Notes under the pieces: model-generated | What the model was told of the DNA's origin: nothing | The model's input: the letters and a program-made list of their open reading frames with translations, nothing else | The model's database searches: none | Program-made: the position numbers and the translations under genes | NCBI RefSeq assembly: GCF_000003815.2 | Contig: NC_049995.1 | Span: forward strand, 6,618,342 to 6,682,341 | Direction: 5' to 3' | Length of the DNA stretch: 64,000 bases | Source of the DNA: Branchiostoma floridae | Taxonomy: Eukaryota; Chordata; Leptocardii; Amphioxiformes; Branchiostomatidae | Shown: piece by piece, positions 14,598 through 57,105 of the stretch | How the letters are laid out: each line of letters begins with the position of its first letter | Numbering within the stretch: the stretch's first letter is position 1

Positions 14598-17500
14598 ATG
14601 TTCTATGCCCATTTCATCTTGAGCAAGAAGGGCCCCCTGGCCAAGGTGTGGCTCGCTGCTCACTGGGACAAGAAGCTGACCAAGCAGCATGTGTTCGAGA
14701 CCAGCATTGAAGGCAGTGTGGAGAGCATTCTTCATCCAAAGGTACTGTGCATTACAAATTTATTTATTGATGAGGGAAGAGTGTTTTTGCCAGGCCTTTA
14801 CAGCTGTGATTTGGCCCCTAGAATGTAATTCAGGCACCTATGCTGTGTTTCAACCAGAGAAAGGTGCCTTTTTGTTTTGTAACAAAGGTAAAAAAAAAAG
14901 TTGTCTTTCTCACTTTTTTCAAAGTTTCTGTCAGTATGTTTGGCCCGCAAAATGCAGGAATTACTAGGGTTACAGATTTTAAAAAAACTTAGGGGGAGGA
15001 TTCCCCCAGACCCCCTACAATTCTAACTCCTGTATGATGTATCGCGCACTTCTTTACCTTTGCTGTACAGGGTTCTAGTGAGGATTTTATTTTAGCGTAG
15101 TGGGAATGGCATGGTAGCAAAGCGACTAATCAGGAGATTGGTGTGGAAGGGGGGGTCTTGGTCCTTCCACAGTGAGATTTGAAGATGTAGAGTTAAAAGT
15201 TAGGATCTTGGGGTCAGTTTTGAGTGGCATATCATCATTTTTCATTGTTCAGACATTTATCAGTCATTGTTGAACAAGCAAATGACAGCAAAGCACCACT
15301 ACACTAGTTAAAAAGTAGCGTAGTGGCCCTTATTTTAGCGTAGGGGTCACAAATTTTAGCGTAGTGGCCCACTACGCTAAAATGCAGTAGCTAGAACCCT
15401 GCTGTAGTTAGATGCTTCTATGCTGTGAAAAAATCCAGGTGAGAACAATAACCGGTTGAAGGGGAATATGCCAGTCAAGGCCTGATCGACTGATCCGAGA
15501 TTCCAACAAGGATATAATGTATCTTTTCAGGTGAAGATGGCTTTACGAACATCAGGCCATCTCCTGCTGGGTGTCGTGCGCATCCACAACCGCAAGGCGA
15601 AGTACCTTCTGGCCGACTGCAACGAGGCCTTCGTCAAGATTAAGATGGCGTTCCGGCCTGGCGTTGTGGACCTCCCAGAGGAAAACCGAGAAGCAGCGGT
15701 GGCGACCATCACCCTTCCCGAGGTGTTCCACGACTTTGACACCACAGTTCCTGACTTGAAGTGAGTTATAAAGATTGTAATATTCTCTTTGTCTTTATGT
15801 ACCCAGGTTTTCTGTTAGATGTATCTGGGTGTGTCTGTTCTTGTGTGTTCGTACTTATTTGAATACGCCATCAGTAGAGTGGAAGGAATTGTCATCGCAA
15901 AGGTCAGACTTGCATTTGTAACAGGTAGTATTTAGTTTAGATGTGTGAAACTTGCAAGGAACTTAACAGTATGTTAGCAATCAGTATGTGGCACTCATAT
16001 ATCATTAGGACCTATTTGCTCTACATTATTATGAGAAATGATTACTAATTAGATCATACAAGCATTTTTTCAATATCATATCTTGCACTTTAGTCGAGGT
16101 ATTCATGTAGTTTTCATTGCTAGCTCAAAACTGCAATGTAATAAAAGTACAGTGAACAATATTGGCTTCTTTTAGACATGATATGATACATTATGTGTTC
16201 TAACTGTTTTGTGTTTCCTGCTGCAGTGACTTTGACATGCAGGCGTTCACCATGAACCAGAGCCGTGTGGAGGAGATCACCATGAGAGAGGATGTGGGGA
16301 ACATCAACATGATGGAGACAGACGCCTTCGGTGAGGGGAATTTTTGAGCTAGATGTTTACCAGGGCTCAAAGTTAGATGCCTTCAGTGAGAGAGATTTGT
16401 TAGCTTAAGGTGTAGCCAAATTTGTAACCGATAGGAAGAAATATCAGCTCTTTCAAAATACTGAATGGTTTTCTCTGGCTGTTAAATGTGATGCAACATG
16501 TGTTTGTATCAATGTATCCGTATTGTCTTTTATCATGATTTAAATCGTCCTTTATCTAAACATGTCACATTCTTGTGAGTAATTCAATACTAATTAAAAT
16601 GTACTGTAAATCGCAGTGCATAAGATGCAAATGCACTTCAAAATACTAGCAACTGATTTTAGTAAAACCTTTTTGTTTGCTCATGTTAAAACGAATGATT
16701 TGAAAGATTTTTTGTGATCATGTATGGTTATAGTCTTGTGGTACATTTAGACTCATTTTGAGGACAATAAAACTAACAAAATCATATCCAGTTGCTTGAG
16801 TAAATGCTTTTTAACTAACAGATACATTATTTTGACCTCAGGTGATCTTCCTTTCGACGACAAGGAAATGTTGCGAGATGCCAGCAACATGGACGAGACC
16901 CTGTACAACACGGCTGACGCCAGCAACCTGCTGCTGGACAGCGATCACAACAAGAAGGACGAGACGGTAGAGAAGCGCCACCCCGAGCTCAGATATGACG
17001 ATCCCATCAAGGATGACTTTGGTGGAGCTCCCGGAGACGGTATCCTCGGTAAGTACTGTAAATTATTAAATATTTGTATTCTTGGTGAGTACATATAGAA
17101 TACAACTTGGGGTGTTCCGTATCGCCCGAGGTACGGCCTGACCTATTTGTATTATACCCTGTAAGTAACTTTTTTTTCTACAAAAAAATTGCAAGGGGAA
17201 GCATTGCAATTGAGCACAGCCACCAAGTGGGAGACATAAGGTTCTCCCTACCATGGTGTGAAGTTTTTGATAAATAAATAAAAATAGCGGATTCTATGGC
17301 TTCCTATGGGCCAAAAATACAATCAGACAGATTACAGTTGAAGACTGTGGCCATATGTGCTCCCTGGTCAATCAGAATTTTATGCTTGCCATAGGATCTG
17401 CTTCCCAGTGTAAATAGATAAATAACATTGTTCAAAATTCCCTACAATATTCTGTGTTCTGGTACAGGTGCTGACTTCCTGGGTGCTACAGCTGGGGACT

Positions 17501-20500
17501 TGTTCGGAGAGGCTCCTGGTGCGACTGGTGACATCTCCATCGGACCTGAGATAGCAGCAACACCCATCCCTGAACAGGCCAATGGTAAGCCTAGGAAAAA
17601 ATTGTTGTGTCCTGTTTCCCTCCCTACCCTAGAAAAACCTGCCAACCCTAGACTTTTTGGGGGGATGGGAAGTGTTGTCACATAGTATGCAAAGCTGGTG
17701 TGTTGTACCCGCTAGGAAATATCAGCTATGTCACTAAAACGTACATTCGTAGCTGATATTGAAAATTGATTGGCCAATACAGTGATGAAAAACACATACA
17801 AATGTTCGATCTGTTTCAAACATTTGTGAAATAGCAGATGACTATAAATGTGCATTTTGCAACTATTTATAAATCATTGACAAGAACTGAAAGATCTGTG
17901 ATAACTGGTTTGATTACAGACAAGGAGCGTGCAGGTCCTAGCGGTGAGTTACAGCCAGACCAGAACGCCACAGCTGTCGCCGATCAAACAACCCTGGTAC
18001 CAAACGAACGAGAGGCGTTCGCGTTAGAGCCACTAGAAGTCACAGGTAAGTTTTATTTTGTTCTGAGCAGTTTTATATTCCTGTGTTTTTAGTATTGTCA
18101 TACCTTGATTTAGCCCCAGTAGGATTAAATATTTCAAGGTTTCAATACGACATTTACCACAAAGAAATACATTGTTGTATTTGACACTACATAAAATTAT
18201 ACAGATTTACTTGGTAATACAAATGTTCTACTGGATTTTTCCAATAAGGCTTACCAAAATGAGTTGTTTTCATTTGCTTAGGCTTTCTGTTTTTTCCTGT
18301 TTTATGTTGGTTTTATTTCGTTATTGTTGAATGCATGAGGAAGTTATTCGTTTCCGTTTTTGTTCAGGTCCTGCGCCAGCCGTGGCAGGTAAAGGATGGT
18401 TTTTCGGACACACTAACCGTAGAGTTTTCACTAGAGTGTGTGCAGTGCCTCTGTTTTTTGACAACTTCTTACACAAGTGTGGTTTTTCTTAGATATAGAG
18501 ACTAAGACTGTGTTTTCTAAAAGAAAAGATTGAAGTTTTGCAGTGCCTGTCACTAATTCTGCTCACTTCTTTTCAGATTTAGGTTGTTTTCTTATTCCTA
18601 GCCATGTTGTGGTGTCTATCCTACTTAAGCTTGAGTTTTCTCCTCTGACTGAGTGTGCATGTGTCTGATTTTTCCAGTCAGGTTGCAAGCAGTCAAGATG
18701 ATGTATCTTGATAAAGAACGTGATAGAGATATGCCAAAAAGCAGTTACACGGGCAACTGGATATGATTTTGGAAATGAGGATGTAGGAGATGAGTATTAT
18801 CGGGCCGATTTACGTATAGATTCGTGTCCCATCCTACGCGCAAAGGCTAGGCAGGCACAGTGTATAGGAACACCGTGTTAGTCTTGGGAACCCGGTGCAT
18901 CATTTCCTTGTCAATCCCAGGGGGAAGGTTTGACCAGGTCGGCGGTCAGGCTAGTCTTTCTATTTTTTTTGTTCTGTTTTTCAATTTTTTTGAAAAATTT
19001 TTTTATTTTTATATTTAAATAAAATTTTATAATATATAATATAAATATAAATTTTTTTTAAATAATAAATATTTTAATATAATTATTAATTATTATTAAA
19101 AATATTTTTTAATAATATATAAATATTATTTTTTATTATAATTTAAATAATAATTTATATAAAAATATAAATTAATATAAATTAATTAAATAATAATTAA
19201 AAATTAATATAAATTAAATTTAATAAAATATAAATTAATTTCAAAATAATAAAAAATTATTTTAATAAAAAATTTTTTTTTTATTATTTTAAAGCTAGTT
19301 ATTTTCTTAATTTTTTATATTTTAATACGGTTGTCTTAAATCTAGCCACAAAGAATAACTGGGGCCCCTAAGAGATTTCCAAAATCATATCCAGTTGCTT
19401 GAGTAACTGCTTTTTGGCGTATCTTATTACCAGGATGTCTCACCCTCATTGACGTATCTTGATAGAGATAGCAGGTTCAATGCTGACTACGAGTCTTGAC
19501 TTGTTAAAACAGGTGTGAAAGAGACCAGAGTGCGTAAGAAGCGGAAGCTGATCGTGGACCCGGTGATCGAGCTCGCCAGCTCAGAGATCCGCGCCCAGCT
19601 GGAGGACACCTCGGACATTGTGACGACCCTTGACCTGGCCCCGCCCACCAAGAAGCTGATGCAATGGAAGGAGATGGGAGGAGTGGACAAGCTGTTCACC
19701 ATGCCGTGCAGGGCTGTAGGGGCCAAAGTCTTGTTAGCTGTAAGTTGGGGTCCTTCTCTTAGTTTGAACAAGACAGTTAACAAGATATCGTCTTTGCAAT
19801 TAGAATAGAAAGGGTGAACAGAAGCTAGAAATTCATTAAGAATGTATATTTTGGTGCTATCCTGCTCTCAAAGAGTGGACAAACTGTTCACCATGCCGTG
19901 CAGGGCTGTAGGGGCCAAAGTCTTGTTAGCTGTAAGTTTGGGATCCTTCTTTAAACAAGACAACATTGAGAGAATTGACAGTGCTTACCACTCCATTCAA
20001 CTACAGTGGACAAAACTGCATCTTTGCCAAAGTCTTGTTAGCTGTAAGTTTGGGTCACAATTCTAAACCAGCGTCCAGCCAGGCTGTATGTGGAAACAAT
20101 CCCATGACTTTTTTCTTTACGTCTTGTCTTACTTTTCGTTCCCGTCTGGGTTGAAAACTTGATGCAGACCTAAACAAGACAGCTGTAGGGGTCAAAGTCT
20201 TGTTAGCTGTAAGGTAGGGTCCTTCTTAAAACATGACATTTGACCTTGCAACTAAAAATGAAATTTGTCATCTAGTGATGATGAAGAGAAGCTAAAAAGT
20301 CATGAAAATTTTATATTTTGAGCTATCCTCCTCTCGAAACGATAAAATACATAACACATTAGAAGATGTTTGTTGAAGGAAAATTTTGTTAAGTGCTTTC
20401 CCTCTGTCTTCAGATTTTCCACAGAAATTTGACGACTGTCATCCCAGAGGACCTGAGAGAAGAGAAAGGATCGACAGTCGATGATGAAGAGAGAATGGAG

Positions 20501-23500
20501 ACTGAGTCCACAGAGATGGGAAGAGATGACATATATGGTGAGTTCTTTTTGTTAGTTTAACCATTTCAATTATGAACAAAATATCTCAGTTAAAAAAAGA
20601 TTTAAGATTGCTTTATCTGAATCATTGATACATCCTCAAAAATTTTAATTCATAGATTTTGTTAGTCTTTTGTTAGACTGTACTCCATCACCACAGAAAA
20701 CGGTCATTAACAGTAGACAAGGGCACTTTGTGTGTATGGTAGGTTGACTAAATTTTAAGTTCCTTTTCATTCATAAATCTTTGTAAGAGTTCTTCTTTCT
20801 TTGGATTTTTTTGGAAATGTTGGTCATTCCCTAACATGTTTTTTTCTGTGACCAATGTTGGAAGCAAGCAAAATTGCAAAATGACATTAAAAATTAAAAA
20901 AAAAAGCACTTTATGTTGAGGTGTTTTTTTTTGCTTTACTAAAAATTCCCTTTTATCCATAAATCTTTGTAAGCATTCATTCTTCCTTTTGTACTTTTTG
21001 GAAATGTTACTCATTCCCAAACATGTTGTTTTCAGTGACTGATGCTCAATACAAGCAAAGTTACCAGTGAAAGGGTATGTCACACCGTAAGGGGTGGTAT
21101 AACCTTGTCGTGTGTAAGCACGTCGAGCGATCATGTTGACAATGCAAGTAAATGTCTGATTCCTTTCCAGACGATGGCCCAATGTCATTCGGCGGTCCCG
21201 CGTCAGTGTCCAGCCTGGGCAGTGTTCCGGAGCCGCTGCCCATGGGAGACGATGATGATGATGATGACCTGCCTCCCAAGTCGGTGGAACCGCCGGAGGT
21301 GCCCGAGAGAAGGCCCTCGCCCGCACCGGAAGAACAGGTAGGAAAAATATCCGGAAACACAAACACACAGACAGACACTCCAAAATCTAGGCAAAGATTG
21401 TGGATAGATTTTTGTCAAGTTGTATTGCTGCATATTTTGTCATTTATGAAATGAAATACAATACACTACAAGTACCTACAGTTAGGGATTTTTTATTTGA
21501 AAGGTCATTTTGTTTTAGCTCAATTTTTGTTGTGCAAGTCTTGAGTCTTGGCCTTATTTGTTAAAATGGCAAAATAAAGACATTCCAACCTTCTGTGAAA
21601 GACATACTTAAAAAAAACACATTTGTTTAACAATTTATTTGACATCAAACATGTTAAATTGTTGAATTTTTCATTTGCAAGTGAACATATTAGATATTTT
21701 GTTTCAGAATTTTTCTAGTGCAAGATATCTTGCACTTAGTTTTTGTTTTTATTCTTATATACACCTTGGAGTTTACATGTAGACAATGTGTTTTCCATGC
21801 TTCTGATTCTGAATATGATTTTACACGTGCTTACGTTATTTCATGCTTTCTGTCTGTCTGCTTATGATTTTGTATGCTCTATGTCCCCAGGCTGTTGTTA
21901 GTAAGAACAGTAGGGCCTCTCCATCAAAGCGCAAGGTAGACAGTGGCTTTGTGTTGGGTGGTTTGCTGTGTGTGAAAAATAACATTAATTTAGTGTAGTA
22001 TAGGCATCCCTAGCCTGCTAAAGGGTAGTAATCTGGATTGTTTGAAACTACAAGAATGGCATGTGAAACTTTTGAATGATAAATGGTTTACTTTAATCTT
22101 ATTTCTGTAATCTAACAAAGTCTTAAAAAAGACTCAGAATGGCAGAGGTACTAGTACTAGTAATAACTAGTATACTAAAATGTGTCATATAATGGCACAA
22201 ACGGTGATCAGTAAGGCTTTGAAAGCATGTGGACAGCATGTTGGACAAACTTTAAAAAAAATCCAGTTGCTCAAGTTATTTGGATTCTTGGGATTGGACT
22301 TCAAACTAACTTATTCATTTGGTGCATCAGTTATCTTTCCCGTTGCTATTTTTGGTGTTCAAGATTTGTAAGAAAAATTGTAATGTTGTCTCATACCTTA
22401 TATAGTAAAAGCACCTTGCTATTGAAAAGATGTAAATTTTGATCCCTTACTTTCTCTTTTAGTAGTATATGTCCATAGAATGCTTGCTGTGTGTTGCTTT
22501 TGTTGTCAAGATTCTTCCATGGTTTTACAGATCTTTTGAGATTTGGAATTATTTTTGCTTGATTCCTGTCAAACTGCACTACGTGTTAACAGGGCAAGCT
22601 ATAAAGAATGTCTATATTTGCATCTACTGTGAATGTGAGTGTGTTGACTAAGACTTCCCTCCCTGTCTGTGTTTCAGAACCAGCTGGGTGGAGTAGAAGA
22701 CTTGTTTGGCGGGGCAGCAGACAGTCCTGCTGTGGACCTTCCCCCAATGTCACCTGTCAAGACACCATCATCATCACCCAGAAAGGTAAACTATTTCATC
22801 TTTCTGCTTACTTACAGCTGTAGAAATTCTTACTCTTCAGTGAGCAGTGGAGAAGAAGAATCCATTGTGACCCGTGATGCCATCACTGTTGTCCATGTTG
22901 AAGGTCTAGAAGCCACTGAGGTCTTCCAGGGTTCTAGCTAGCGCAAAGTTGCGTAGCGGCCCGCTACGTTAAAATTTTGGACCGCTACGCTCATTTTGGG
23001 GCCGCTACGCTTATTTTCAATACAAAGTAGCGGCATTTTGACTGTATTTATTTGTGCAATAATGCCAGATAAAATGTAAAAAAACGTTGGTTTCAGTTGT
23101 TTCAGAGGGAATCGCAATGAGCAAAACACAAATACATGTGACGGCGCTGCCTGGCGTGACTTATCAGGTCCCATGTGCACAGAGCGCACGGCCGAGGCGG
23201 GTCTTCATGTTGCCCTCCCATATGTGGCAAGCCCAGAGCCATATTTGGGCTAGACTGGCTTATTACGACTTGCCGAGGGAGTGTCCTTGTATGACAATCT
23301 TTTTCGTGGAACTTGAACAACTACAACTACAAATACGTTTCCTCCACGTCCTCAACGCTTTTTCCTCGTAACTTGCGCGCCTAACCTCACTAAACTGCAT
23401 TAATAATTTTTAAGGATAGAAAAAATAATAATCAGACACTTGTCCCTCATACACTTGGCACGTCCCGATCAGGCCGTGGGAGGCTGTTGAAAAAGTTCGT

Positions 23501-25432: not shown

Positions 25433-25642
25433 TTATCGTTACAAGAGTTTTAGAGAGTTATCGTGTATGTAGCTGTATTTTATTCAATTCCTTTTGGTTA
25501 CAGTTGTTGGATACGTAAGTAAATGTAGTCATTATTCGTGTCAGTCCCATAGTCTTTCTCTATTTTGTAACTGTGTGACATGTACTTACCTAGATGGGTT
25601 TTTTGTCTTTTTTCAAATCCTGATTTTAATTTTTGGGTAGCT

Positions 25643-25648
25643 AATAAA
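25643..25648 (+). promoter_or_regulatory. Candidate RAD21 poly(A) signal
   Basis: AATAAA, 211 bases after the stop. A second AATAAA at 26763-26768 could serve a longer 3' UTR. Confidence 0.5.
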
Positions 25649-27572
25649 ATGAAAGGGTCCAAAGTTGTTCGAATTGTAGACGTCAAGCAATTTCTGTGTA
25701 CCCGTTTTGTATTGTATAGATAAATATGTAACTTGGTAACATTTATTTAAAAGATATTTTGTCCTAAAAATATCACCAAAAAATATCAGCGCTTTAGTTT
25801 TCTATTGTAGGGCAGTGTATTTGGCACACATCTTAGTTTGTTTAGGACTCCCATGTTATGGTTAGAAAAAGGGGAAAACAATGTTATTTAAGTTCTTCAC
25901 AATAGACTCGTGGGTATAGTGGAGACATGGCAAATGTTCTTCGTTTTTGGCCATCTTTTTTAAGCTTCCTCCAAGGGACTCAACACTTATTAATGTAAAT
26001 TTGCTTATTCTTACTGTGGGTTTTTTTTCTGTAGGGGGAAAAGTAGGTTTTTGCAGTGTTTTTTCAATTCCTGGTTGATACAATTCTGTTGTACACCGTA
26101 GCCATACATTGGAAATACATATCTAGTATCTACAATGTCAGGAAGTCAAACAACTCACTGCAAAAACTACAAAACTAAAACCGGTACCATTGGAAAAGTT
26201 AAGGTTTACCGTATTTGGCAGGGGGAGGAGGTATGCTTCTTACAAAAGAAAAAAAAGACTTAACTCGAGACTTCCTTGTATACTACAATGTCTTAATCAG
26301 CTTAAATTGGGTCTTGTACAGTAAGGATTTGTAGATGCCTATACTAGAATATAAAGGGTAGAAGTAGATATTGTAAATATGTTTCTGGAAACCTCCTATC
26401 TGAGCCTTGTCATAGATTATGTAACCTAGCCCCAGATTTTTTTTGTCTCACCCAGTGTAATTTGACCTATTTTTAATTATTTTCAATTAAAATAAGAGTG
26501 ACATTTATTGCCTGTCAAAATTTTGCATGAGCGACACTAAAGATTTGGTAAAATTACGGTGCTTGGCAAAATCTTGATACATTTGAAGTCAACTTTTTTT
26601 CCTCTTCATTCAAGACTAGTTTGGCTTTTCACAATCCCAGGTATAAATACAGAATACTAGTAAAACAATTCATTATTCAGTGTAAACATCAATACATACT
26701 CAAGGTAGACACATTGTTAGACCCATGTATTCAGTTCTACTATGGAGGTTTTTACATTTTGTAATAAAACAGCTCTTTCTATGTGAATATACTCTTCTGT
26801 TGAGTCATGATTCAACATACTGGCTTAATGCAGTGATGAAGGTTGGTGTGTCTGACTTGATAGTGCTAGTGCTAGCTAATATATAGATGGATGACGCAAG
26901 CCTTCTTCGAGTTCCCACATTTATTAAAATCAGGTATTTGTTGCGAAAACGCTATTCAGCCATATGTCAATTCCCCCAAAAAAGCCATTCAAGGGAGGTG
27001 CTAGTATTGCACATTGCCTTGAATTAATAGTCATGCCTTACCAAATTCTCATAACTTCTACATTTGTACTTCCATTTCACTCGTTCAAAGCAGAAATGCA
27101 GACGGTGGGTAGTTTTGTTTCCATCTATTTATAATTATAGTAGTAATTATATAGATAACAATTGTCATCAAATCTGATAGAAATCGATGAAAAATGTACC
27201 AGTTTGTAAGAGCAGGTAAATCACTTCAGCAACAGCTAGGTTTTAAGTCCACTACCAAACATGCCAGTTGGTGCGGTGATGAAGGTTAGACATCCAGGTA
27301 ATTAAGATACAACAAAAAGCAGTTACTCAAGCAACAGGATATGATTTTGGAAACGGTCAGACATTTCAGACAACCATCTGGTGTCTTCTGTCCAGTGTCA
27401 AACTTTGATGCAGTAACTGGCAAGAGGACAGTACAGACGAGACAGCAGGAATGGGCTATGAATGGTGTTGGCACAACGGTTGGCTACAGACAAATATAAA
27501 GAAAAGCAATGATGGACTGATGTGCAAACAGTACAGATTAGACAGTCCACCACTCAGATAACAGTACTAGTA
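25649..27572. other. Convergent intergenic stretch between RAD21 and KLHDC9-like
   Basis: Mostly 3' UTR and intergenic sequence. It holds a second AATAAA for RAD21 (26763), a minus-strand AATAAA (26920-26925) that could end the KLHDC9-like transcript, and a MITE fragment at about 27314-27365. No other gene was seen. Confidence 0.5.
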
Positions 27573-30333: not shown

Positions 30334-31191
30334 TTTCTCACCAAAGAACGTCACAAATACGCCCGAGAATTGGTTCGTAGATCTAGAAGGACGTCATGTA
30401 ACTGACGACGTTTTTGTTTCTTGGAGTGTCGTCCGGCATAGTCCTGTCGTCCGCATCTTCTGGCGGGCATTCACCTGTTTTTACCAACAAACCGACGCCA
30501 TTTTAGAACTTCACAGGACGTGACCGTACAAAAGCGCTCTCTTGCGAGATATAGTAAAACTGCATCAGTATACACTGGAGGAAGACGGCCAGGAAACCAG
30601 TGTTCTGTATATTCTTCTCCCCTTCGCCTTTCCTTTCTTTCTTACTTACGGTACAACTTTACTCCTCCCTTCCATTTTCTTCTTTCTTGCTTGCTGCTGC
30701 CTTAAATTGGTACTTTTTTTTTTTAAGTTCTAACAGAAAGCACCAAGGAGGTTGAAAGGACTGAAAGCACTAACGTTTAATATGACCCACTATCTCGAGC
30801 ACGACTTCTCCGAATATCAAAGAAGCTTATTGTAAAGGAACGAAAACAATTAAACTATAGACATAAGAATGGAAAGAGGAGGGGCACATAAACAAGAAGA
30901 CATACCAAAATACCAGAATTATCTCACGTTGGTTCCTAGAAATGTAAAGAATATCAGATCCAGATGCTACGGAGGAGCGCAGCCTCGTTTTGGTGCACCG
31001 CCAGACGAAAGTCAACACTGCCACGTCGACGTCGCAGACTCCGAAACTAGCCGCTCGTAGAAAATCAAACTGGACCCGCTAGATTCACGGTGAGTTTAAT
31101 CATATACAACGTAGTTTGACTTTTGGACAGCTGATGCAATGTCGGACTTTGTCTGAAACTTGTGTGCTCAAAATATGATGAAGTATTCAGC

Positions 31192-31540
31192 TGTAACAGT
31201 GGGGTTCTAGCGCTGCCAAACTGACCACGCCAACAGCTCTTGAGCTTTTGGTGTTGTGGTTAGCACGTTGGATTTGTGATCCGGCTGCCCGGGTTCGGCG
31301 CGGGTTCGAATCCCGGGAGTCGGGGTGTTGTTTCTTTCTGTTCTTACTCGCCCCTCTGAATTTCTACAATGGTTCCCACGCCGGCCCTGTGAGTAACAGG
31401 CTAGTATGTGCCACACAGGGATGTCGATCTCGGAGATTCGAGGACGAATCTTGAAAAGAAAAGGGGGAGTAGTGTAACAGTGGGGTTCTAGCGCTGCCAA
31501 ACTGACCACGCCAACAGCTCTTGAGCTTTTGGTGTTGTGA
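31192..31540 (+). mobile_element. tRNA-derived SINE followed by a partial second copy
   Basis: An A-box-like TGGTTAGCACGTTGG and a B box GGTTCGAATCC lie at about 31258-31310. The head begins TGTAACAGTGGGGTTC at 31192, and the same head of about 65 bases recurs at 31473-31540. This gives a full monomer plus a truncated one. A related SINE lies at 58303-58661. The acceptor stem does not pair, so it is not a working tRNA. Confidence 0.75.
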
Positions 31541-34560: not shown

Positions 34561-34853
34561 CCAATCACCAATGAGATTGCCTTTTACATCGATAGCTCTC
34601 AACTCCACCAATCAGATCCTCGCTTACACAGCCTTAGGTATATCACCTCATCCAGTTCACGAATCACCAGCAACCAATCACATCAAGTCTTAGAAACAGC
34701 GTGGCCAAGTTGCTTGGCAACAGCCAATCGGAGGGCTGGATACGTCAGCGATCACGCAGGCGCTGCATGTTGGGGGTCATGACCCTGCGGTCGTTGCGTC
34801 AGTAATTTTCCACACAAGGAATTTTTTATGTGCCAGTTTGTATAAAACCATTC
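34561..34853 (+). promoter_or_regulatory. Candidate PYCR promoter with five CCAAT motifs
   Basis: CCAAT occurs at 34561, 34568, 34608, 34674 and 34723, followed by a CRE-like TACGTCA at 34741 and a TATAAAA at about 34841. The TATA-like box would place the transcription start near 34870, which favours the ATG at 34920. Confidence 0.5.
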
Positions 34854-37800: not shown

Positions 37801-40250
37801 AGTTTTAAGGACATAGAACAAGTAGGTCATTTTATCATCTGAAATAACGGGTGTCCCAAATTGAGGTCATTAGACAGCTGGGGTAGCTGTCTATGGAGTG
37901 TACTACACTATTTCAAAAAGGCGGTGTCGGATTTCAATGCTGCAGTACAGGAAAATACTGCCAGGAGGCCCAACATGGCAATGTTTCCCTGTAGCTAGCC
38001 ACACACTAAGATCACACAGTTCAATCAATAATGTATCTTGAGTTATACATGTAGTTGCAAATGCACAAACGCAACTAAAAAACAGTGCCTCCGTTGTAGG
38101 CAAGCCTCCTTCCCAGTAACAGTAACAGAGATTTATTGAAATGGGTCATTTTTGTGTGTGTAATGTTTTGACAAATTGTTTGAATAGAAATTATTTCCTT
38201 CATTCCAGGATATCGGTTGTCAATTCACACACAACAACAAGGAAGCAGTAGAGAATAGCGACATCATCTTCCTATCGGTGAAACCACACATTCTACCAGG
38301 GGTGCTACAAGAGATCGCTCCTGTGGTCACCAAGAGACACCTCATGGTTTCTGTTGCAGCAGGTGTCCCACTGCAGTTCCTAGAAGAGGTAAGAAAACAC
38401 TGGTGTGAGGCCTAACAAACTTGATTTAATGGGAGATGATTTTGGCATGTTTTCGAGTTAAGATAATGTGATGGACTATGATACAGCTGGAGAAAGCTGT
38501 CGTGTTTGAATCAAGAACTTTTCTTGATAGCATTAGTAGCTTCTAGGGTTTGCAAGGGTGGTGTTTTGTACATGACTGAAGATAGTGTGTTCAAGAAGAA
38601 GTGCAAATTGACTTTAAGAAATATAGCAATTAGTGTCTACTTATTGCTTATCAATTTTGCTTTTTTTGTGCCAAAAAAATACTTTTATTGCCACCAGCCT
38701 TGTCAAAGAAAGGTGCTCAAAGCATGAAGCAGTTTGGAAACCACATTCAGCGATCCAAAACCCTCCCATAATTACAACATATTTCTAGCCTGGATACGGG
38801 CTACCATTGATGTAAATTACGTCATTAGGAAATGATGTCATGTGAACAGAAAGATTTCACCAATATCATCACTTAGTCTCGCCAGCGATTTTTTATGCAT
38901 TCAGTTGATACACACAGATATTGACGTTGAGTGTTGAAGACTCGAATGCTGTTGCTTAGCAACAGATAATCGTACCCTGTTATTTTTACAAATTGGCTGC
39001 TATGTTTACTGTAACATGCGTGATGTTCAACAGTTGGATTATCAGAGACTTGGAGACCTGTAAGCTGTCATGATGCTAGTATATACATGTTGCAGTAAAT
39101 GTTTGGTTGTGAAAATGAGGAAAATCTCAGAATGATGAAGAAAATGACATAAAAAAAAGACAGTAGTACTATAGTTACCGGAAAGGAAAAAAATCAACAT
39201 ACTGTGAAGTGTGAAATATTTACTTAGTGGTTTTATTCTAGTGGTTTACACCAAGCTTTCAATATCAACATGTGGTCAGTTCTACATACTGTATCATTCC
39301 AATTGTGGGCAACAAAAATCATGGTGGCACAACCTGGCTTTTGACTTAGGTTGCTGCCTATGCAACCTGGCTGAAAAAAGGATTTCGAGCTCAACTTTTA
39401 CTGTGCAAACTTTACAATTACAGTCCAACCAACGTGTTTAGTATCCAGAAGGTCATTGAACAGCCATTTTCTTCCCGTTTTCCAGAAACTTCCCCATAGG
39501 TCTTCAACACTGAAAACCCTTTATTGTGCAAACTTTACCATCACAGTTCAACCAATGTGTGTAGTATCCTGGCAGGTCATTAAAACAACCCTTTTCTTCC
39601 CGTTTTCCAGAAACTTCCCCCTAAGTCTTCAACACTCAATACCTTTTGTTGTGCAAACTTTACCACAGTCTACCAGTCTCACCATTTAAACAACCGTTTT
39701 TTTCCCGTTTTCCAGAAACTTCCCCCGAAGAGCCGTGTGATGAGAGTAATGCCGAACACCCCCTGCGTGGTCCGACAGGGCGCGTCCGTCTACGTTCCCG
39801 GTAGCCACGTGGAGAAGGAAGACTCGGAGATCATCAAGTCGCTCCTCTCGAGTCTGGGGTACTGCAGCGAGAGTAACGAGGGGATGATATCCGCTGTTAC
39901 CGGTCTGGCCGGCAGTGGGCCTGCGTATGTAAGTATACTGTAAATGCATTTAAGTTTGTAGGGAGTTGATTTCATGGTAGCGGGAAAAAGGGACTGTTTG
40001 CGGTGGTGTTAATTTCGTGGTAGCACCATGCACTGTGGTCTCTTACTGCCATGGATAAATGTTCGCGGTGGTTTTAAGTTCGCGGTGAAGTAGCCACTGC
40101 GAACATAAAACCATCGCGAACATTTCTGCATTTATAGTACCTGCTAAATCGCCGGGATTCATTGATTGCTGACTTCTGTGGCCGTGAAATTGATTGATTA
40201 CTCTAAGTGAACTTGAAAACGTGAAAATTTTTGGGAATCATGAAAACGCA

Positions 40251-40297
<47 letters not shown>

Positions 40298-43200: not shown

Positions 43201-44699
43201 AAATCATGTAGAGCTTTCTAAATGACCAAAATTGTAAAGAAACACCTGCAGTCTGAAATCCTAAGATATGAATCATAAATATGAGAACCCAACCAAGAGA
43301 GAGAAATGAACAAAATTCTGCTGGATCAGCCCGTGTTTACACAATGACAATCTCTCGTTAATGTGGTGGCAACTCGCTAGGAGCGCGATTTTAGTCAGGC
43401 TACGTGATCAGTAGTCGCACACGCAACCTCTAACTTTCAGGGGCTGGTGTGCCCCCCTCCCCCTCGACAGGAACACAATTTCAGCCAGGCCACTGCATGA
43501 CTGACATATGGTTGCAAGATTGCTTATGGCCACCACAAGTCAAACATGGTACATTAACAGTTACATAAGGCTGTATTTTAACCAGTATTTCTGTCTCATT
43601 TCAGGCCTTCACAGCCATCGATGCCTTAGCGGACGGAGGGGTGAAGATGGGGTTGCCACGGGAACTGTCCATCAAGCTGGCGGCCCAAACATTACTGGTA
43701 TGTAGGAAGCCTCTACGAACACTGCTCACTTAGAGCTCAGAATGTCAGTGGCCATTTTTCACAGTATGGTAGGAAGCCTCTACGAACATGGAATATTGGT
43801 TGCCATTTTTCATAGGGAACATGTTGTAGTTGATTTCAATAGGATGCCATAACAGCACCACATGGAAAAGAATACATGAATGAGATGTACAAAAATGTTT
43901 TTTGTCTTCATTTGTGTTTTCAAACTTATAATGTTATCTGTTCTATATAAGCCAACCTCTCAGAAAAGTTTGATTGGAAAACTACAGTCCAGTCTAGAAT
44001 TACTGGTATGTAGAAAGCCTCTACCAACACTGCTCACTTAGAACGTGGAATGTTGAGTACCATTTTTTATAGGGAACATGTTATAGTTAAGTTTTAGAGT
44101 AATTGGTTGAAAAAACATACTCTAATGTACTGTGGTATAAACTCTTTTTTTCTGTTGGAACAATGTTTCAGAATGTGTTTTGTCTTACATTTGTGTTTTC
44201 AAACTTTTAAGTGTTAACTCATCTGCATTATGATCCAGCCTTCCAGAAAAGTGCGATTGGGGAGTTATATTATAATCTAGAATTTGAGTTTGAGAAAAAG
44301 AGAAATTTTGACATTTTGACTCCTTTAAACCAACAACCCGCCACGGTATTCTCTGAAAATGATTTCTCTTGGATTCAGAGAAAACGCTAAATGCAAAATA
44401 GTACCACTATGAATTGTAAAAATTTCCCCTTAACCTCACAATAATGATAAGTATCATTGATAGTCATATGAACATATCAATTTTAAAAGTCTTTGTTCTT
44501 TTTCTTGCAGGGAGCATCCAAGATGGTGCTAGAAACAGGGAAACACCCCATGCAGTTGAAGGACGATGTCTGCTCCCCCGGCGGGACCACGATATACGCC
44601 ATCCACAAGCTCGAGTCCGGCGGTTTCCGCAACTTGCTCATCGACGCGGTGGAAGGGGCGTGCCTTCGTGCAGAAGCCATCGCCAAGAAGGCAAAATAA
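34854..44699 (+). CDS. PYCR3: Pyrroline-5-carboxylate reductase, PYCR3-like
   Basis: Six exons, 34854-35022, 35829-35893, 38209-38388, 39716-39928, 43605-43697 and 44511-44699, join in phase. The enzyme reduces pyrroline-5-carboxylate to proline with NAD(P)H. The N-terminal Rossmann motif is [15 protein letters not shown]. The substrate and dimer region carries [26 protein letters not shown], and the family signature [20 protein letters not shown]. Residue choices ([24 protein letters not shown]) and the short tail ending IAKKAK fit human PYCR3 better than PYCR1 or PYCR2, which have longer tails. The start is open: ATG at 34854 gives 302 residues, 34920 gives 280, 34956 gives 268; human PYCR3 has 274. 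I prefer 34920 because of the TATA-like box. No mitochondrial targeting sequence is obvious. Introns carry duplicated splice sites and an extra exon-like block. Confidence 0.93.
37112..37370 (-). pseudogene. Unrecognised coding-like fragment inside a PYCR intron
   Basis: The minus strand reads [18 protein letters not shown] and then [17 protein letters not shown] before a stop. This looks more protein-like than random sequence. No start, splice sites or family could be identified. It may be a transposon or retrocopy remnant. Confidence 0.22.
39471..39715 (+). repeat. Tandem copies of the PYCR exon 4 acceptor
   Basis: The string CCCGTTTTCCAGAAACTTCC occurs three times, with AG ending at 39485, 39610 and 39715. 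The last is the real acceptor. Units are about 125 and 105 bp and include intron sequence and the first exon bases. The middle copy is 105 bases upstream and open in the exon frame. Confidence 0.92.
39716..39928 (+). CDS. PYCR3: PYCR exon 4 (catalytic and dimer interface region)
   Basis: A phase 0/0 exon of 71 codons from [19 protein letters not shown] to [12 protein letters not shown]. It has unusually high GC for the region. A TA-flanked MITE starts seven bases after its end, just past the GTAAGT donor. Confidence 0.95.
39936..40139. mobile_element. TA-flanked MITE directly after the PYCR exon 4 donor
   Basis: CTGTAAATGCA at the left and TGCATTTATAG at the right are inverted ends flanked by TA. 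The interior has a palindromic pair (AAATGTTCGCGGTGGTTTTA and its inverse). The insertion leaves only the GTAAGTA of the donor intact. Confidence 0.8.
40254..40349. repeat. TC microsatellite
   Basis: About 20 uninterrupted CT/TC dinucleotides followed by an imperfect TTTC and TCTC tract. Confidence 0.92.
41484..41570 (+). pseudogene. PYCR exon 4-like block (extra or decayed exon)
   Basis: TTTTCGCACAG and GTAAGT enclose 29 codons, phase 0 at both ends, with no stop. The residues [11 protein letters not shown] then [10 protein letters not shown] align without gaps to [11 protein letters not shown] then [10 protein letters not shown] at the end of exon 4. The downstream intron start (GTAAGTACACT against GTAAGTATACT) also matches. 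It is a partial duplicate of exon 4 in the next intron. The catalytic-site SGSGPAY-type motif is altered, so a working substitute is doubtful; it may be a cassette or a relic. Confidence 0.7.
42171..42308. mobile_element. Fold-back MITE in a PYCR intron
   Basis: TAATCTTGAACCAGATCC and GGATCTGCTTTGAGATTA are inverted ends. The flanks AAAATGTCC and AAAATGTTC are a slightly diverged 9-bp target duplication. Same family as 2936-3021. Confidence 0.8.
43690..44290 (+). repeat. Duplicated PYCR exon 5 donor and downstream intron (two units of about 308 bp)
   Basis: ATTACTGGTATGTAG-AAGCCT occurs at the real donor (43698) and again at 44006. The following intron sequence, including CACTGCTCACTTAGA and AGGGAACATGTT, is repeated through about 290 bases. 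A third short copy of the donor-proximal part (GGTAGGAAGCCTCTACGAAC) lies near 43769. Confidence 0.9.
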
Positions 44700-47496: not shown

Positions 47497-47914
47497 CTAA
47501 TCTCCAAGCAGATCCACAGTGGCATAATGAAGTATCAAACCCACCGTAGGATCTGCATTCATTCGGCTTCACAAAAGGCTACAAACATCCAATTGTTGCC
47601 TAATCAAACTGTGCTTGCTGTGTATGTGTTAATTGCCCTCCTTCCTGTTTGGCGCAGATCTCCTACAGGGATGTGTGCGGGTCAATGAACTTGTCCCAAT
47701 AAAGATGTAAATTGCTTGTAAAATCATTAGCACCTCAGATATTCGAGCTGTTGATATGGCACAGGGAGGGGCAGAGACACCTTTATTCAATAGAAATGCT
47801 CCTCCCAGTTCCAGTGAAGGCAGATCTCCGGTGCCAGTTTGACTCCCTTTGGCCCGCTTTACTCCTTGGCCAGCTTTGATACTATCTTATGACACCATAG
47901 GATCTGCTTGGAGA
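47497..47914. mobile_element. Longer fold-back element with 9-bp target duplication
   Basis: It begins TAATCTCCAAGCAGATCC and ends GGATCTGCTTGGAGAT. CATCAAGCC precedes and follows it, a 9-bp duplication. At about 418 bp it is the longest family member here, with an interior unrelated to the short copies. Confidence 0.78.
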
Positions 47915-48084
47915 TCACATCAAGCCGCACACACATCTTTAGAAATGACATAGCCGCATACGTCTATCACCTGTAACGAAAGAGCTTGAGGAATGAGTTT
48001 AGCAAGAAAAAGACTTGCCTTCTTATGAAATGCAAGTGGCCAGGCACGTTCAACAAATGAAACACACAAGATTATTACACCAAA

Positions 48085-48130
48085 AAGTAGTTACTCAAGC
48101 AACTGGATATGGTTTTGAAACGGTCAGACG
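48085..48130. mobile_element. MITE fragment (AGTTACTCAAGCAACTGGAT family)
   Basis: The sequence carries the family terminus followed by GAAACGGTCAGACGTTTC, as in the copy at 27314-27365. Confidence 0.65.
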
Positions 48131-49764: not shown

Positions 49765-49770
49765 TTTATT
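49765..49770 (-). promoter_or_regulatory. Candidate SLC30A poly(A) signal
   Basis: AATAAA on the minus strand, about 1.5 kb past the stop at 51264. The long interval between them contains no other gene and reads as 3' UTR. Confidence 0.45.
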
Positions 49771-51263: not shown

Positions 51264-54200
51264 TCAGTCGGAGGGGTCCCGACAGTGAGAACAGTCGCGC
51301 ATTTCCTCCTGGAACAGCTCGATCTGAATCGTCGAGGAGTGCACGACGAATCTGCTGCGCACCAAACGGGAGGCTATGTCCAGCACCTCTTGGGGGTCCG
51401 CGTCGACGTCTGGATGAGATATATCGTAATAATAGAAGTTGGTAATTTTCAAGCAGATATCATAGTAGGAAATGAAAAAAACTCAACATTTTCCCGGTGA
51501 AATTTTGCTGTTTTCCTCTCAGTGATATAGGAAACGCTAATTCACAAAAATACATATCTTGTACCTTAACGCTTTTTTGGAAAATGGTTAAGAATAGCCT
51601 GATTAAATCTGGCTTATAGCAGCCCGACAAACATCCGCCGGCCCCATACCGGGGAGGGGCCAGTTACAGCCCTGGACAGCGGAGTTTGTGTTACACAGAC
51701 TAGGTTAAGAAAAGTGGAATTCTAACTGAAGGTGGTGAAGTTTACCGAACGTACGCGTGTTGCGAAGAGGCCGTCTTTTTACTCGGGTAATGTTGCTTGA
51801 AAAAAAAAAGTATTTTGAATTCTTAAGATTGAATTTGATTTGTGGATTCAATCGCTATCCTTTGATTTTGGTTTTTGGTTTAATTCGGATCTCCATTAGT
51901 GACTAGACTGGTATATCACTATTCCTCCAGGTGAAGGATAAAATCACCGTGTGGCTGATACTAGACGGAGCGGCACTGCACCATTGGCGTTGCCAAAACC
52001 TAGCGCACTTACCGACGGCGATGTGGACGGCCAGCGCGTTCTTGCCGACCGTCAGAGACCAGATGTGCAGCCCGTGGACGGCGTGTACTCCCGGGATCGC
52101 CTTCAGACTCTCCTTCACGGAGTTAAAATCCAACCCACGAGGGGTGCCTGCAAACAGACAAAAGATAGCAAGTAGAAGTGGGTACGATTTCAGTACAAAA
52201 TTTACGTTACTCGTACAAAACCGTTTTTTCCTGTTGAATCGGTCCAGAAAAACCGGACCAAAAAAATTAGTGGACCGTGTTTTGGACCGATTCGAAAATT
52301 GATACATTATACCGGCAGGTGTTCATGTGTTTGGGGGCTTACCGGCCCAAGAAAATAACAGAGTTGTTTTGAGTATCGCTCTTTCACAAGTTTTCAAATA
52401 CAGGTCTAGGTTTATGTCCAGATCTGGACCTGGACTGGATATATATAAATACGTATACCTGAATTTTCTGTACCGGTACATGATTGTATTGAATCACTCG
52501 TGGATGAAACAACATGAGCTTCAACACGGTCTTAGAAAATGAAGTTTTAAAAACAACTCGCAAAAATGCCAAAGTTTTAGCAAGGATTCACTAAAATGCA
52601 AATAGGGACACCAAGATGGCGCCGGACACAACTATGACGTCACGTCATGACGTACCTTCCATGAGCACGTTGACGGTGTCCCGCAGGATGCTGAGGGTGG
52701 TGATCAGCACCAGCACAGAGAACATGAAGGTGCAGATGGGGTCTGCTATGGCCCAGTCAGGCTAGGGAGTATAAACATGGTAAATTGGCAATTCTCAAAC
52801 TTACAATTTGGTAATAATGTGTTCGAACAACAGACTTTAAAAAATATTCAGAGGTGTAGACAAGTAAGGAATTGCACTGATTTATACCTGTCTGAACTAG
52901 CGAAAGGCATGCCAAGCTTGAGCCCTCCTTCTATTTTTTTTAAACCCCTGTTATGAACTTTATTAAGAGTAGCAGGAAACCAGCATTGAAGCTCGTGTGA
53001 ATCAAACATAGATCTAGCAAATCTAAGACAAAGTAAACTCCCTTCTAGCTTTCAGAGCTTTTAGTACAGAGGTTTAACATAGACATCAATTAGTGCTGCC
53101 AACTATTCACGAACCCACAGCACAAAACCGCAAGGCTTAAAGGTCCTGTGTCTCTAGTCTCAAAGCAGACCCAACGGTGCCTTAGAGATAGTATCAAAGC
53201 TGGCAAAGGAGTATAGCCGGCCAAAGGGAGATAGCCGGCTAAGGGAGTCAAACGGGCACCTGGTGCCGCTATACTAAGTCCCTGGCCAGCTTTGATACTA
53301 TTTCTAAGGCACCGTAGGGTCTGCTTGGAGACTACTGTGTCTCTTGGTTAACCCCACGGTTACACCGTAATCACTTACCCTGAAGTAAATGATGATAGCG
53401 GCGACCAGCACCCCCAGGCTCTGTACGAAATCCCCGACCACGTGGATGAACGCCGCCCGGACGTTCACGTTTTCTTTCCGGTTCTGCTCGCCTCCGTCCT
53501 CCCCCTTCTCCAGTAACTCCGCCTGCGGATCTCCCATCTGGTAACCCTGACTCTCGATATCAGTCCTCACGATTCCTTCCTCACACGACCTAATGCCGCC
53601 GTAATTATGAGGAATGCCGTTACTTTGGCAGCTTTTTGTCAACTTCTGACTCTCGTCGCATTGCTCGTTAGTACATGGACCGTCCGGTGTGTGACCTTTC
53701 CCAGATTGGTCCTGACCTTCGTGACCTGTTGGCATTTGACCCCCATTGCTCTGACCGTGACCTGTTGACACTTGACCCCCATTGATGTGACCGTGACCTG
53801 TTGACACTTGACCCCCATTGATGTGACCGTGACCTGTTGACATTTGGCCCCCATTGCTCTGACCGTGACCTGTTGACACTTGACCCCCATGGCTGTGACC
53901 GTGACCTGTTGGTATTTGACCCCCATTGCTGTGACTGTGATCCGTTGACATTTGACCTCCGTGGCTGTGTCCGTGACCTGTTGACGTTTGACCTCCGTGG
54001 CTGTGCCCGTGACCTTTGTCCCCGTGACCTTTACCCCCGTGGCTGTGTCCATGTCCGCTGAACCCGTGACTGTGACCGTGACCCCACTGATGGAGGATGA
54101 AACCCATTCTGTAGTGGACGAACAAAATGCTATTTAGCATCAACAACCTTAATATCAATATATTTTCAGATGCGTGCAGTAATATTATATGTACTCTAAA

Positions 54201-57105
54201 AAGCTATAACAAAAGTATTTTTGTGATCAGTTTCTTGACTCCCGTAAAGCATACAAAGTCAATCGGCATCGTTCATATTTCGTGGTGCGAAAAGCTTCAT
54301 GGAGGTAGTGATTCAGGCCAAAGGGTGATCGGAAGTCTAAACCGAGACGGGTGTTGCTACAGGCTCCCCTCGTCTTTGACTTCTGACGAACGACTATCTT
54401 TTGCAAAACTTTTGGCAAACATGATTTGTTCACCATTCTATAGATATGATAAAATTTAAACTACGTGTAGTGTATCCTTACGCCGATGAAGATTAAACAT
54501 CCAGGTAATAAGATACGCCAAATAGCAATTACTCAAGCAACAGGAAATGGCTTTGGAAACGGAGTCAGAGCATTTCAGGCAGAATCCACTACCTTTTGTC
54601 TACTGTCACTAACAAAAGCCGTATCCAGTTGCTTGAGTAACTGCTATGGCGTACGTGTACCTTTAGGCCTTCTCTATAATATCGTTGAAGAGGTTCATCA
54701 GTCACGTATGCAAACAGTTACAACAATTTTCATCAATCAATGACTGTTTTTTGTAAAGGAACAGTACATACCTCCCAAATTTTCGATGTCTACCAGTACA
54801 TCATCGTCAGGGGAATGACCTAGTCTCATTCTCGCGAGAGAACACGAGAGAACACTTCTCTATAATAATCTTCAAGCAGATTCCCGGTGGCATAAGCTGG
54901 CAAAGGAGGTCATCCACCTCCCGGTGCCCGTATGACTCACTTAGGCCGGCTATACTCATTGGCCAGCTTTGACACTGTCTTATGACACCGGAGGATCTGC
55001 TTGGAGATTACTCTAGTCTAGAAGAGCAATAATTTTTGGAAGCTCTTACACCAAATTGACAGCCACCCCACAGGAAGCTGTGATGAGCATGATCTTGGCG
55101 TCGATGTCCATGTCTCTGTGGATGACCCTCATCACGGCGTTATACACCAGGATCCCGGTCACCACCCAGATCAACAACACGGACACCAGGGCACCCATCA
55201 CCTCTGCAGCAGGCAAACATAAACATAAACAATAGAATATATGTGTATCAACAAGAACTGACGTCAACAATAGCGTAACATCATTTCCGCAACAGGTAAA
55301 CAACACACTGGCCAAAGTGATCTTGGACTTTATGTCAAGGGATCAAAGAAGCCTTTACAGCCATCCATAAACATAAACGGTGGGCGCCATAGCTTTCCTG
55401 CAACTTATGATCCACTGCTCTCCGAGTCACGTGTGCTATTTACATAGCGTGACATCACAGCAGCAGTGGATTGTTCATTCCTTACCAAGTAGTAAGTCCA
55501 TTTTTTTGTGTTGGAAATTACAGTTCAACTTTTTCCAGGAGTATTCAAATGAGGATTCGGTATATGATCAGCAATGATATTACGATTTCCAAGCAGATGT
55601 GACGTGTGAACTTACCTGCTCGGTAGTAGCCGAAGTTCATACTCTTGGTGGCGGGCCTTGTCGCGACCCAGATGGCGAACAGACTGATCATGAAGCTGGC
55701 GAAGTCCGTCATCATGTGGGCGGCGTCTGTCATGATGGCCAGGCTCCCGGCAAGGTAGCCGCCTGTCAATCACACATGCAAATTAGTGATGTCACTACAT
55801 GGACGACTTTTGTCACAGTGGTCAGATCGCTGTCAATCACACATGCAAATTAATGACGTCACCACATGGACGAATTTATCACAGTAGCCATGATGGAGAT
55901 AAGACAAAGGACACACACATACATCACGTGAATTTTTGTGATACCACGTGCCCATAACGTTATCGACAATCTCGGCCACCAAGATGACGCAGAGGTTGCA
56001 CATATATATCACGTGACGTATTGTGATATCACGTGACTATCACGTGACTTGCCGACCACCTCGGCCACTATGAAGATGAGGCACAGGATGCAATCGTGAG
56101 ATGACGTGAAATCACGTGACTTAGCGATCACCAGAATACACATATATCACGTGATCTACTGTGATTTCACGTGACTATCACGTGACTTACCGATGACCTC
56201 GGCCACCATGAAGATGAGGCAGAGGATGCTGGCCATGATGAGTTTCTTCCTGGCCGTGGGATCCACGGGTCGGCTCTCCCCCGTGTCATGGCAGTGCGAC
56301 CGGTAGTTCCTACCCAGCAAGTAATGTTCCTGCGAAATGTGTTGGCAATCATCAATATGATATCTTAAACGTCTTTCTTGTGGGTTATGATTAGTTAGAA
56401 CTGTTTTTGTCAATTATAGGTGGTTAATACCCAGCAAGTACTGTTCCTGGTAAACACGTTGATAGACATCACTTTTAATCGTCAAATGTCAATCTTATGG
56501 GTTACTTAGAACTGTTTTCATCAAGTATAAACGTGGAAAGGGTCAGTATTTATGTAGATCCTGGGTACTGTTCATGGGAAATACGTTAACAGGCATCACT
56601 ATGAAACGTTAAACGTCATTTTTGTGGGCTAGTTAGAACTGTTATCATCAATTATACAAATAAAACGGGCCGGTATTTATGTAGTTCCTACCCAGAAAGT
56701 ACTGTTCCTTGGAAATGTGTTAGTAGGCGTCATTATGAGATCTTAAATGTCTTTCTTGTAGGTTAGTTAGAACTTTTTTCTTTAATTACACAAATCGAAA
56801 GGGCTTGTATCAAAATGGCAATTGTTTGATATTCACTCCTTTAGAATCAGGAAAAAAAGCCTTGATTTATGATAAATGCCGAAATTGTCCTTCGGAGTAA
56901 ACAACAATAGAATTCGTTCCTAACAGGGCCATTATCCACATTGAGGGACATGGAGTTTCATTCAAGATGCCCGCTAGTTGCCATTCTCTCCACATACCCT
57001 CCCCGCATGTATAATGGTCCGTCCCTGATACGTACCTCGTCATCATCATTAGTGGACGTGTCCGTGATGAACGGCGTGCATCCACCTGGTCTTACGTCAC
57101 CGCCC
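51264..57105 (-). CDS. SLC30A: SLC30A zinc transporter (ZnT2/3/8-like), N-terminus missing
   Basis: Eight exons, 57105-57036, 56329-56191, 55762-55616, 55203-55050, 54108-53379, 52761-52656, 52147-52013 and 51409-51264, join in phase to about 541 residues after an unidentified first exon. It is a cation-diffusion-facilitator that moves zinc out of the cytosol into vesicles in exchange for protons. TM1 is [15 protein letters not shown]2 has [17 protein letters not shown] and TM5 has [20 protein letters not shown]; the His and Asp of each HxxxD form the transport zinc site. The C-terminal domain has [20 protein letters not shown] and ends [12 protein letters not shown], as in ZnT2/3/8. Between TM4 and TM5 the usual short His loop is expanded to about 195 residues by 12-residue repeats. 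Which ZnT paralogue it matches is open, because lancelets diverged before the vertebrate duplicates. Confidence 0.94.
51599..51711. mobile_element. Dispersed repeat, copy 1 (AGCCTGATTAAATCT family)
   Basis: The sequence from AGCCTGATTAAATCT through CTTATAGCAGCCCG, GGGGCCAGTTACAGCC and GGACAGC-GAGTTTGTGTT is repeated at about 61760-61850. No ends or target duplication could be set. Confidence 0.65.
53155..53330. mobile_element. Fold-back MITE with long arms, in an SLC30A intron
   Basis: AGTCTCAAAGCAGACCC with its inverse, continuing through CACCG...TAGTATCAAAGCTGGC, give arms of about 60 bp. CTGTGTCTCT flanks both sides, a target duplication of 9-10 bp. Confidence 0.82.
53379..54108 (-). CDS. 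SLC30A: SLC30A exon with expanded His-rich loop and TM5
   Basis: The 730-nt exon enters with one base completing Val and continues [15 protein letters not shown]. It then carries eight 12-residue units of the form [11 protein letters not shown], an acidic and polar linker with several Cys (CTNEQC, KSCQSN, RSCEEG), and finally the TM5 block [14 protein letters not shown]. Human ZnT2/3/8 loops are much shorter. The loop is cytosolic in known family members. Confidence 0.93.
53727..54014 (-). repeat. Coding 36-bp minisatellite (8 units) in SLC30A
   Basis: Eight consecutive 12-codon units, each near [12 protein letters not shown], with His replaced by Gln, Ile or Asn in some. On the plus strand the DNA is a repeat of GTGACCTGTTGAC and TTGACCCCCATTG. 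Confidence 0.93.
54514..54653. mobile_element. Complete 140-bp MITE with TACGCCA ends
   Basis: TACGCCAAATAGCAATTACT at the left and AGTAACTGCTATGGCGTA at the right are inverted ends that include TA. This is the most compact complete copy of the family in the window. Confidence 0.78.
54868..55012. mobile_element. Fold-back MITE in an SLC30A intron
   Basis: TAATCTTCAAGCAGATTCC and GGATCTGCTTGGAGATTA are inverted ends. The core holds GGCCGGCTATACTC, as in other copies. Target duplication is weak. It ends about 38 bases from exon 55050-55203. Confidence 0.78.
55763..55852 (-). repeat. Tandem copy of an SLC30A acceptor region (2 units, 67 bp)
   Basis: CTGTCAATCACACATGCAAA occurs directly at the acceptor (55763) and again at 55830, each followed by related sequence (ATGACGTCAC or ATGTCAC, ACATGGACGA, TCACAGT). 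Confidence 0.88.
55952..56092 (-). repeat. Two intronic copies of the SLC30A TM1 exon end and donor
   Basis: On the minus strand the real exon ends [13 protein letters not shown] plus donor. A copy at 56092-56041 reads [13 protein letters not shown] followed by a GC-type donor GCAAGT. A third at about 56000-55952 reads [12 protein letters not shown] and has lost the donor. TATCACGTGA-rich spacers separate the copies. Confidence 0.9.
56309..56790 (-). repeat. Four tandem copies of the SLC30A TM1-exon acceptor and exon start
   Basis: The real boundary is at 56329. Copies have boundaries at about 56446, 56573 and 56707 (units of 117-134 bp). Each carries a version of GAACAGTACTTGCTGGGTA after the acceptor. 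Copies 2 and 4 keep AG; copy 3 has lost it. Downstream TTAGAACTGTT and TCAATTATA also repeat. Confidence 0.92.

Follow-up and report, generated by a model that had tools for sequence, protein, structure and literature searches.

Why should the ends of exons recur inside the introns that they border? The window analysed here is a stretch of 64,000 nucleotides from Branchiostoma floridae (positions below count from its first letter), and a first-pass annotation of it proposed that segments spanning seven splice sites of three genes, RAD21, PYCR and SLC30A, are copied in tandem into the neighbouring introns. Tandem repeats of exon-intron boundaries in amphioxus Adh3 have been given the name "mirages" (Canestro et al. 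2002, as related in an excerpt of PMC3087553). The locus raises the questions of whether the copies are real, whether the decoy splice sites that they carry are under selection, and whether duplication favours exon boundaries.

Results

Gene models and other features of the window

RAD21 (forward strand, 14598-25432, 11 introns), PYCR (forward strand, from about 34,900 to 44698, 3 introns) and the zinc transporter gene SLC30A (reverse strand, 51264 to above 56329, 6 introns) were given exon-level models. The 20 introns in these models all have GT-AG ends, and the joined frames are open in RAD21, in SLC30A and, from 38209 onward, in PYCR. The best PDB match of the spliced RAD21 protein is a chain named rad21 homolog (E 1.1e-160); spliced PYCR matches pyrroline-5-carboxylate reductase 1 (E 1.3e-82), and SLC30A, queried without most of its histidine loop, matches zinc transporter 8 (E 2.9e-107). 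Since the spliced models are open and homologous across the affected boundaries, the functional exons are intact and the extra copies are intronic. The PYCR exons upstream of 38209 are partly placed: the one near 34,965 is a placeholder without splice sites, and there is probably one more. Among the upstream PYCR boundaries, the acceptor at 38209 alone entered the probe test described below.

A 36-bp coding minisatellite of about eight units expands the histidine-rich loop of SLC30A (53720-54015, reverse strand). The window also holds a kelch-repeat gene (27590-30303, reverse strand) in which three or more stretches bear domains; self-BLAST and tandem-repeat finding detected no tandem copies in its region, 27,000-31,000. 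An open frame at 57156-57806 on the forward strand contains a GIY-YIG-like stretch, YVGETSRALRTRFLEH, and presumably resembles the endonuclease of Penelope-like retroelements; it had no Pfam match. A dispersed repeat family, with pairs 83-88% alike, occurs in introns and intergenic DNA (42218-42305, 47827-47915, 53279-53336 and 54960-55012) and is probably a mobile element.

Copies of seven exon-intron boundaries

By self-BLAST and tandem-repeat finding, six of the seven named boundaries have head-to-tail copies, and in the alignments each real splice site and its copies are in register. The features are listed by gene.

RAD21, forward strand
16227..16330, +, coding exon 3 (exon 4 in the earlier numbering), donor GTGAGG at 16331
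16375..16405, +, marginal copy of the 16330 donor, 31 bp, GTGAGA at 16386 (P uncorrected)
19513..19739, +, coding exon 7 (exon 8 in the earlier numbering), donor GTAAGT at 19740
19873..20025 (outer limits approximate), +, copy 1 of the exon-8 donor, exon bases identical 57/58, GTAAGT kept
20026..20181 (outer limits approximate), +, copy 2 of the exon-8 donor, exon bases identical 17/17, GTAAGT kept
20182..20338, +, copy 3 of the exon-8 donor, exon bases identical 26/27, GTAAGG kept
20757..20875 and 20943..21062, +, purely intronic tandem pair, 79% identity by self-BLAST

PYCR, forward strand
39397..39519, +, unit 1 copied from the 39716 acceptor, AG preserved ahead of 39486
39520..39639, +, unit 2 copied from the 39716 acceptor, AG preserved ahead of 39611
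39716..39928, +, exon with the copied acceptor (exon 4 in the earlier numbering), from the gene model
43605..43697, +, exon with the copied donor (exon 5 in the earlier numbering), GTATGT at 43698
43999..44284, +, tandem copy (about 300 bp) of 43691-44001, 8 exon bases and GTATGT kept

SLC30A, reverse strand
55827..55896, -, next-exon acceptor (55762) copied with 0-3 exon bases and an intact AG
55905..55999, -, TM1-exon donor, copy 2, its splice site having decayed to AT
56000..56091, -, TM1-exon donor, copy 1, GC replacing GT
56191..56329, -, TM1 exon, both boundaries copied, from the gene model
56419..56810, -, three 127-bp-type units derived from the TM1-exon acceptor; the middle one has lost its AG, the other two retain it

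As in a mirage, the unit spans the exon-intron boundary at five sites, with 8-58 exon bases; at site 55762 it does so only loosely, and site 16330 is marginal. The exon share is about 58 bp in copy 1 of the RAD21 exon-8 donor, 36-39 bp at the SLC30A TM1 donor, 27 bp at the TM1 acceptor and 15 bp at the PYCR 39716 acceptor. A purely intronic tandem copy had also been claimed at 20748-21065, and the RAD21 pair listed above corresponds to it.

At least four introns of RAD21, PYCR and SLC30A contain growth of this kind. With array limits set by hand, the arrays account for 599 of the 674 bp in RAD21 intron 7 and for 587 of 813 bp in the PYCR intron that follows 43697; they fill the 428-bp SLC30A TM1 intron entirely and occupy 321 of 1327 bp in the PYCR intron that precedes 39716. 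The proposal that the copies have enlarged introns is therefore sound as a statement of anatomy: arrays form 72-100% of the length in three introns and 24% in a fourth. A whole intron made of boundary copies, even with hand-set limits, is also what might suggest that the copies are relics of mobile elements, or that tandem duplication created introns rather than enlarged old ones; however, the blocks at these sites match nearby sequence alone, the dispersed family described above is separate from them, and we consider such an origin extremely unlikely.

Probe test of the copied sites

The BLAST blocks were a blunt instrument in RAD21, where AT-rich stretches forced a shuffle threshold of 86 raw that dropped copies 2 and 3, the 16330 copy and an AT-rich array. 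A more permissive self-alignment merged the SLC30A arrays into one block and was left out of the counts. A probe test was therefore added. For every one of 42 splice sites, a 60-bp probe with the site at its centre was compared with up to 800 bp of adjoining intron, and 400 block-wise dinucleotide shuffles per site served as the null. The strongest result was at the SLC30A TM1-exon donor (P about 0), followed by the RAD21 19739 donor (P 2e-16), the PYCR 43697 donor (P 3e-14), the SLC30A TM1-exon acceptor (P 7e-14), the PYCR 39716 acceptor (P 2e-12) and the acceptor of the next SLC30A exon (P 8.6e-9). The RAD21 16330 donor gave P 7.6e-4, a value reached by 1 of 400 shuffles and marginal for 42 tests. 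All seven copied sites named by the first-pass annotation were thus located, six firmly (P 8.6e-9 or lower) and the RAD21 exon-4 donor marginally. The SLC30A acceptor at 55204 (P 4.8e-4) was not counted, its match being a GTTTATG-type motif that ends short of the splice site. At the other 34 of the 42 splice sites, with P of 0.12 or more, the probe test found no copy in the adjoining intron.

An assembly that placed allelic copies side by side could produce head-to-tail repeats. Heterozygosity in lancelets may be high, one globin mirage was misassembled in a draft genome (according to the portion of PMC3087553 consulted), and the window contains four N gaps, all of them before position 13,000. 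Against this, the arrays and their surroundings are free of N, the aligned blocks mostly differ by 10-33% with indels, and several ages are represented within one array. The copies were said to differ in age and unit length in a way that argues against a single assembly error, and they do: spacing ranges from about 55 to 310 bp, and identity from 98%, a figure over one exon end, to under 70% in the lowest copies. An artefact is accordingly highly improbable.

Decay of the copies and their decoy potential

If the real exon is frozen and the copy is free to change, mismatches near the splice site should record one lineage and those in the remaining unit two. Nine of 11 copy-real comparisons fit this one-lineage decay, as judged by mismatches in the exon and first 10 intron bases predicted from the rest of the unit. 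The two comparisons too conserved for neutral decay are both at the RAD21 exon-8 donor, where copy 1 shows 1 mismatch in 68 close to the splice site when 11.3 would be expected (P 6e-5), and copy 2 shows 1 in 27 when 6.3 would be expected (P 0.007). In both copies the exon end is almost unchanged and the remaining unit is 61-71% identical (forced global alignment). Such excess conservation points to younger nested duplication, conversion or constraint near this splice site; on the sequence, the simplest reading is that these would be shorter duplications that arose later within an older array, or products of conversion from the exon, and constraint may be an alternative cause.

The GT or AG is retained in 10 of 13 copies and lost in three. 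Among the 11 copies with a divergence estimate the dinucleotide is kept in 9, against 8.4 ± 1.4 expected, so decoys show no clear sign of being purged or protected; the two copies outside that estimate are RAD21 16385 (kept) and the middle SLC30A acceptor unit (lost). If used, 9 of the 10 copied sites that were translated (3 of the 13 copies were untranslated) would bring in a premature stop within the inserted sequence. The sole exception is the PYCR acceptor at 39611, use of which would add 35 residues in frame. The expectation that the copies supply decoy splice sites therefore stands as far as their presence is concerned, and selection for or against them is not clearly seen.

The copies might be functional decoys kept by selection, acting through poison splicing, regulated retention of introns or binding of U1 or U2 snRNP. 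In favour of this are the RAD21 copies, which keep GTAAGT, GTAAGT and GTAAGG together with near-perfect exon ends, and the premature stops that use of nine of the ten translated sites would bring. However, premature stops are the usual result of retaining any intron sequence, plain decay suffices for nine of the 11 comparisons, and the dinucleotide is gone from three of the 13 copies. In addition, the available parts of PMC3087553 and PMC3902484 describe published mirages that leave splicing undisturbed in Adh3 and globins, and no aberrant mRNAs in Adh or TnC. We regard selected decoys as very unlikely; most copies look like inert, decaying repeats.

Placement of duplications relative to exon boundaries

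Whether boundaries attract duplication was addressed with several nulls. Copied blocks contain 5 of the 42 splice sites, where circular shifting of the sites leads to an expectation of 3.5 (P 0.26), with the SLC30A coding 36-bp array left out and the AT-rich array below threshold. By event placement on a hand-made list, five of seven strong tandem events cross a boundary where 1.67 would be expected (P 0.009), and counting the abutting SLC30A acceptor gives 6/7 (P 0.0007). The seven strong events leave out the coding 36-bp array, the AT-rich array at 18961-19415, the 16330 copy and a pair at 39995/40060. Adding weak events gave 6/9 (P 0.002), and adding weak events, the AT-rich array and the abutting acceptor gave 7/10 (P 0.0004).

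A boundary copy is also easier to see. In a simulation of decaying duplications (n = 5,927, after 73 of 6000 events with an exon or intron overlap below 5 bases were dropped), the detection rate of boundary copies was about 1.6 times that of intronic copies. This bias raises the expected boundary share from 0.24 to 0.33-0.34, against which 5/7 has P of about 0.045 and 6/7 P of about 0.007. With five of seven events spanning a boundary (six if the abutting one is included) against this simulated share of about 0.33, placement by pure chance is somewhat strained. Probes gave a further comparison: a nearby copy at P<1e-4 was found for 6/42 splice-site probes and 10/215 intronic probes (one-sided Fisher 0.030), and at P<1e-3 for 8/42 and 15/215 (Fisher 0.019), or 7/42 and 15/215 without the simple-motif match (Fisher 0.047). 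The 215 intronic controls remained after 25 of 240 draws were dropped (target below 120 bases, or N), and 6 of the 10 control matches at P<1e-4 fall inside boundary arrays.

Beyond the three genes, self-BLAST also showed pairs in tandem or nearly so, at 1045/1207, 1453/1588, 31192/31473, 32906/33268, 61008/61086 and 62257/62315; local duplication is therefore general in this DNA. The pair 31192-31262 and 31473-31543 consists of 71-bp units 281 bp apart that are 98.6% identical and, by identity, younger than the boundary copies as whole units.

Since the window was chosen because the pattern had been noticed in it, the boundary excess is to be read as suggestive only. An excess of copies at boundaries is weakly supported. 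Duplications might be targeted there, for example by DNA breaks arising through R-loops, paused transcription or the sharp change in base composition where exons end, as the event-placement values before and after correction for detection bias and the probe comparison would favour; the circular-shift result, the after-the-fact choice of window, the small number of events and the possible non-independence of the neighbouring SLC30A events count against it. Such targeting is possible, and we hold it to be doubtful. Across the nulls P runs from 0.0004 to 0.26, depending on the test and on the events included, and the recurrent targeting of boundaries raised earlier is not established.

Discussion

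Taken together, these data indicate that the arrays are very probably mirages, that is, minisatellite-like tandem duplications, spaced about 55-310 bp apart, that cross or adjoin a splice site and are tolerated and decaying. The copies stand head to tail in the adjoining intron and vary in length and age. A tandem duplication would arise by replication slippage or unequal exchange and would be tolerated since neither the exon nor its original splice site is damaged; the extra copy would become intron, leaving the mRNA unchanged, and later rounds would lengthen the array. A stronger version, in which exon boundaries are true hotspots of tandem duplication, introns of housekeeping genes grow steadily and some arrays, such as that of RAD21 exon 8, are still renewed by the exon, seems to us unlikely.

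With six or seven of 42 sites affected in three genes of one window, mirages may be common in this genome. They offer a plain route by which introns lengthen and acquire spare splice sites, and a genome-wide count of boundary duplications would be worthwhile. The hotspot question can now be better posed, because the detection bias has been estimated (about 1.6-fold under the decay model). Among the matches listed in open-licence literature on mirages, amphioxus minisatellites and splice-site duplication, no title or abstract opening announces a genome-wide mirage count.

Tandem duplication has reportedly made a new intron, both in the potato RdRp study and in the work of Gao and Lynch 2009. 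Unlike in those cases, the copies described here were added to introns of genes with an otherwise ordinary exon-intron layout. The portion of the potato study consulted links tandem duplication within the RdRp gene to intron evolution (PMC4974935).

In lancelets the phenomenon has already been described, and RAD21, PYCR and SLC30A would be further mirage genes. Those named in the consulted parts of PMC3087553 and PMC3902484 are Adh3, two globins, troponin C and PGBD5, with other loci cited. The excerpt of PMC3087553 reports mirages in the globins BflGb6 and BflGb9 and describes minisatellite-like intronic tandem copies of 5′ or 3′ exon boundaries in units of 10-160 bp, with splice signals surviving in many copies, though not in all, and BflGb6 units 81-100% identical. 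That of PMC3902484 describes, in lancelet PGBD5, imperfect 60-bp and 108-bp tandem repeats that overlap splice sites, are supported by resequencing and differ in copy number between two genome versions. The arrays reported here resemble PGBD5 in overlapping splice sites, in another gene, and share with the Adh3 and globin mirages the tandem boundary copies within the intron and the splice signals kept in many copies. They differ from the Adh3 and globin mirages in lying in RAD21, PYCR and SLC30A, in including one unit of about 308 bp, in being more diverged and in affecting both boundaries of one exon.
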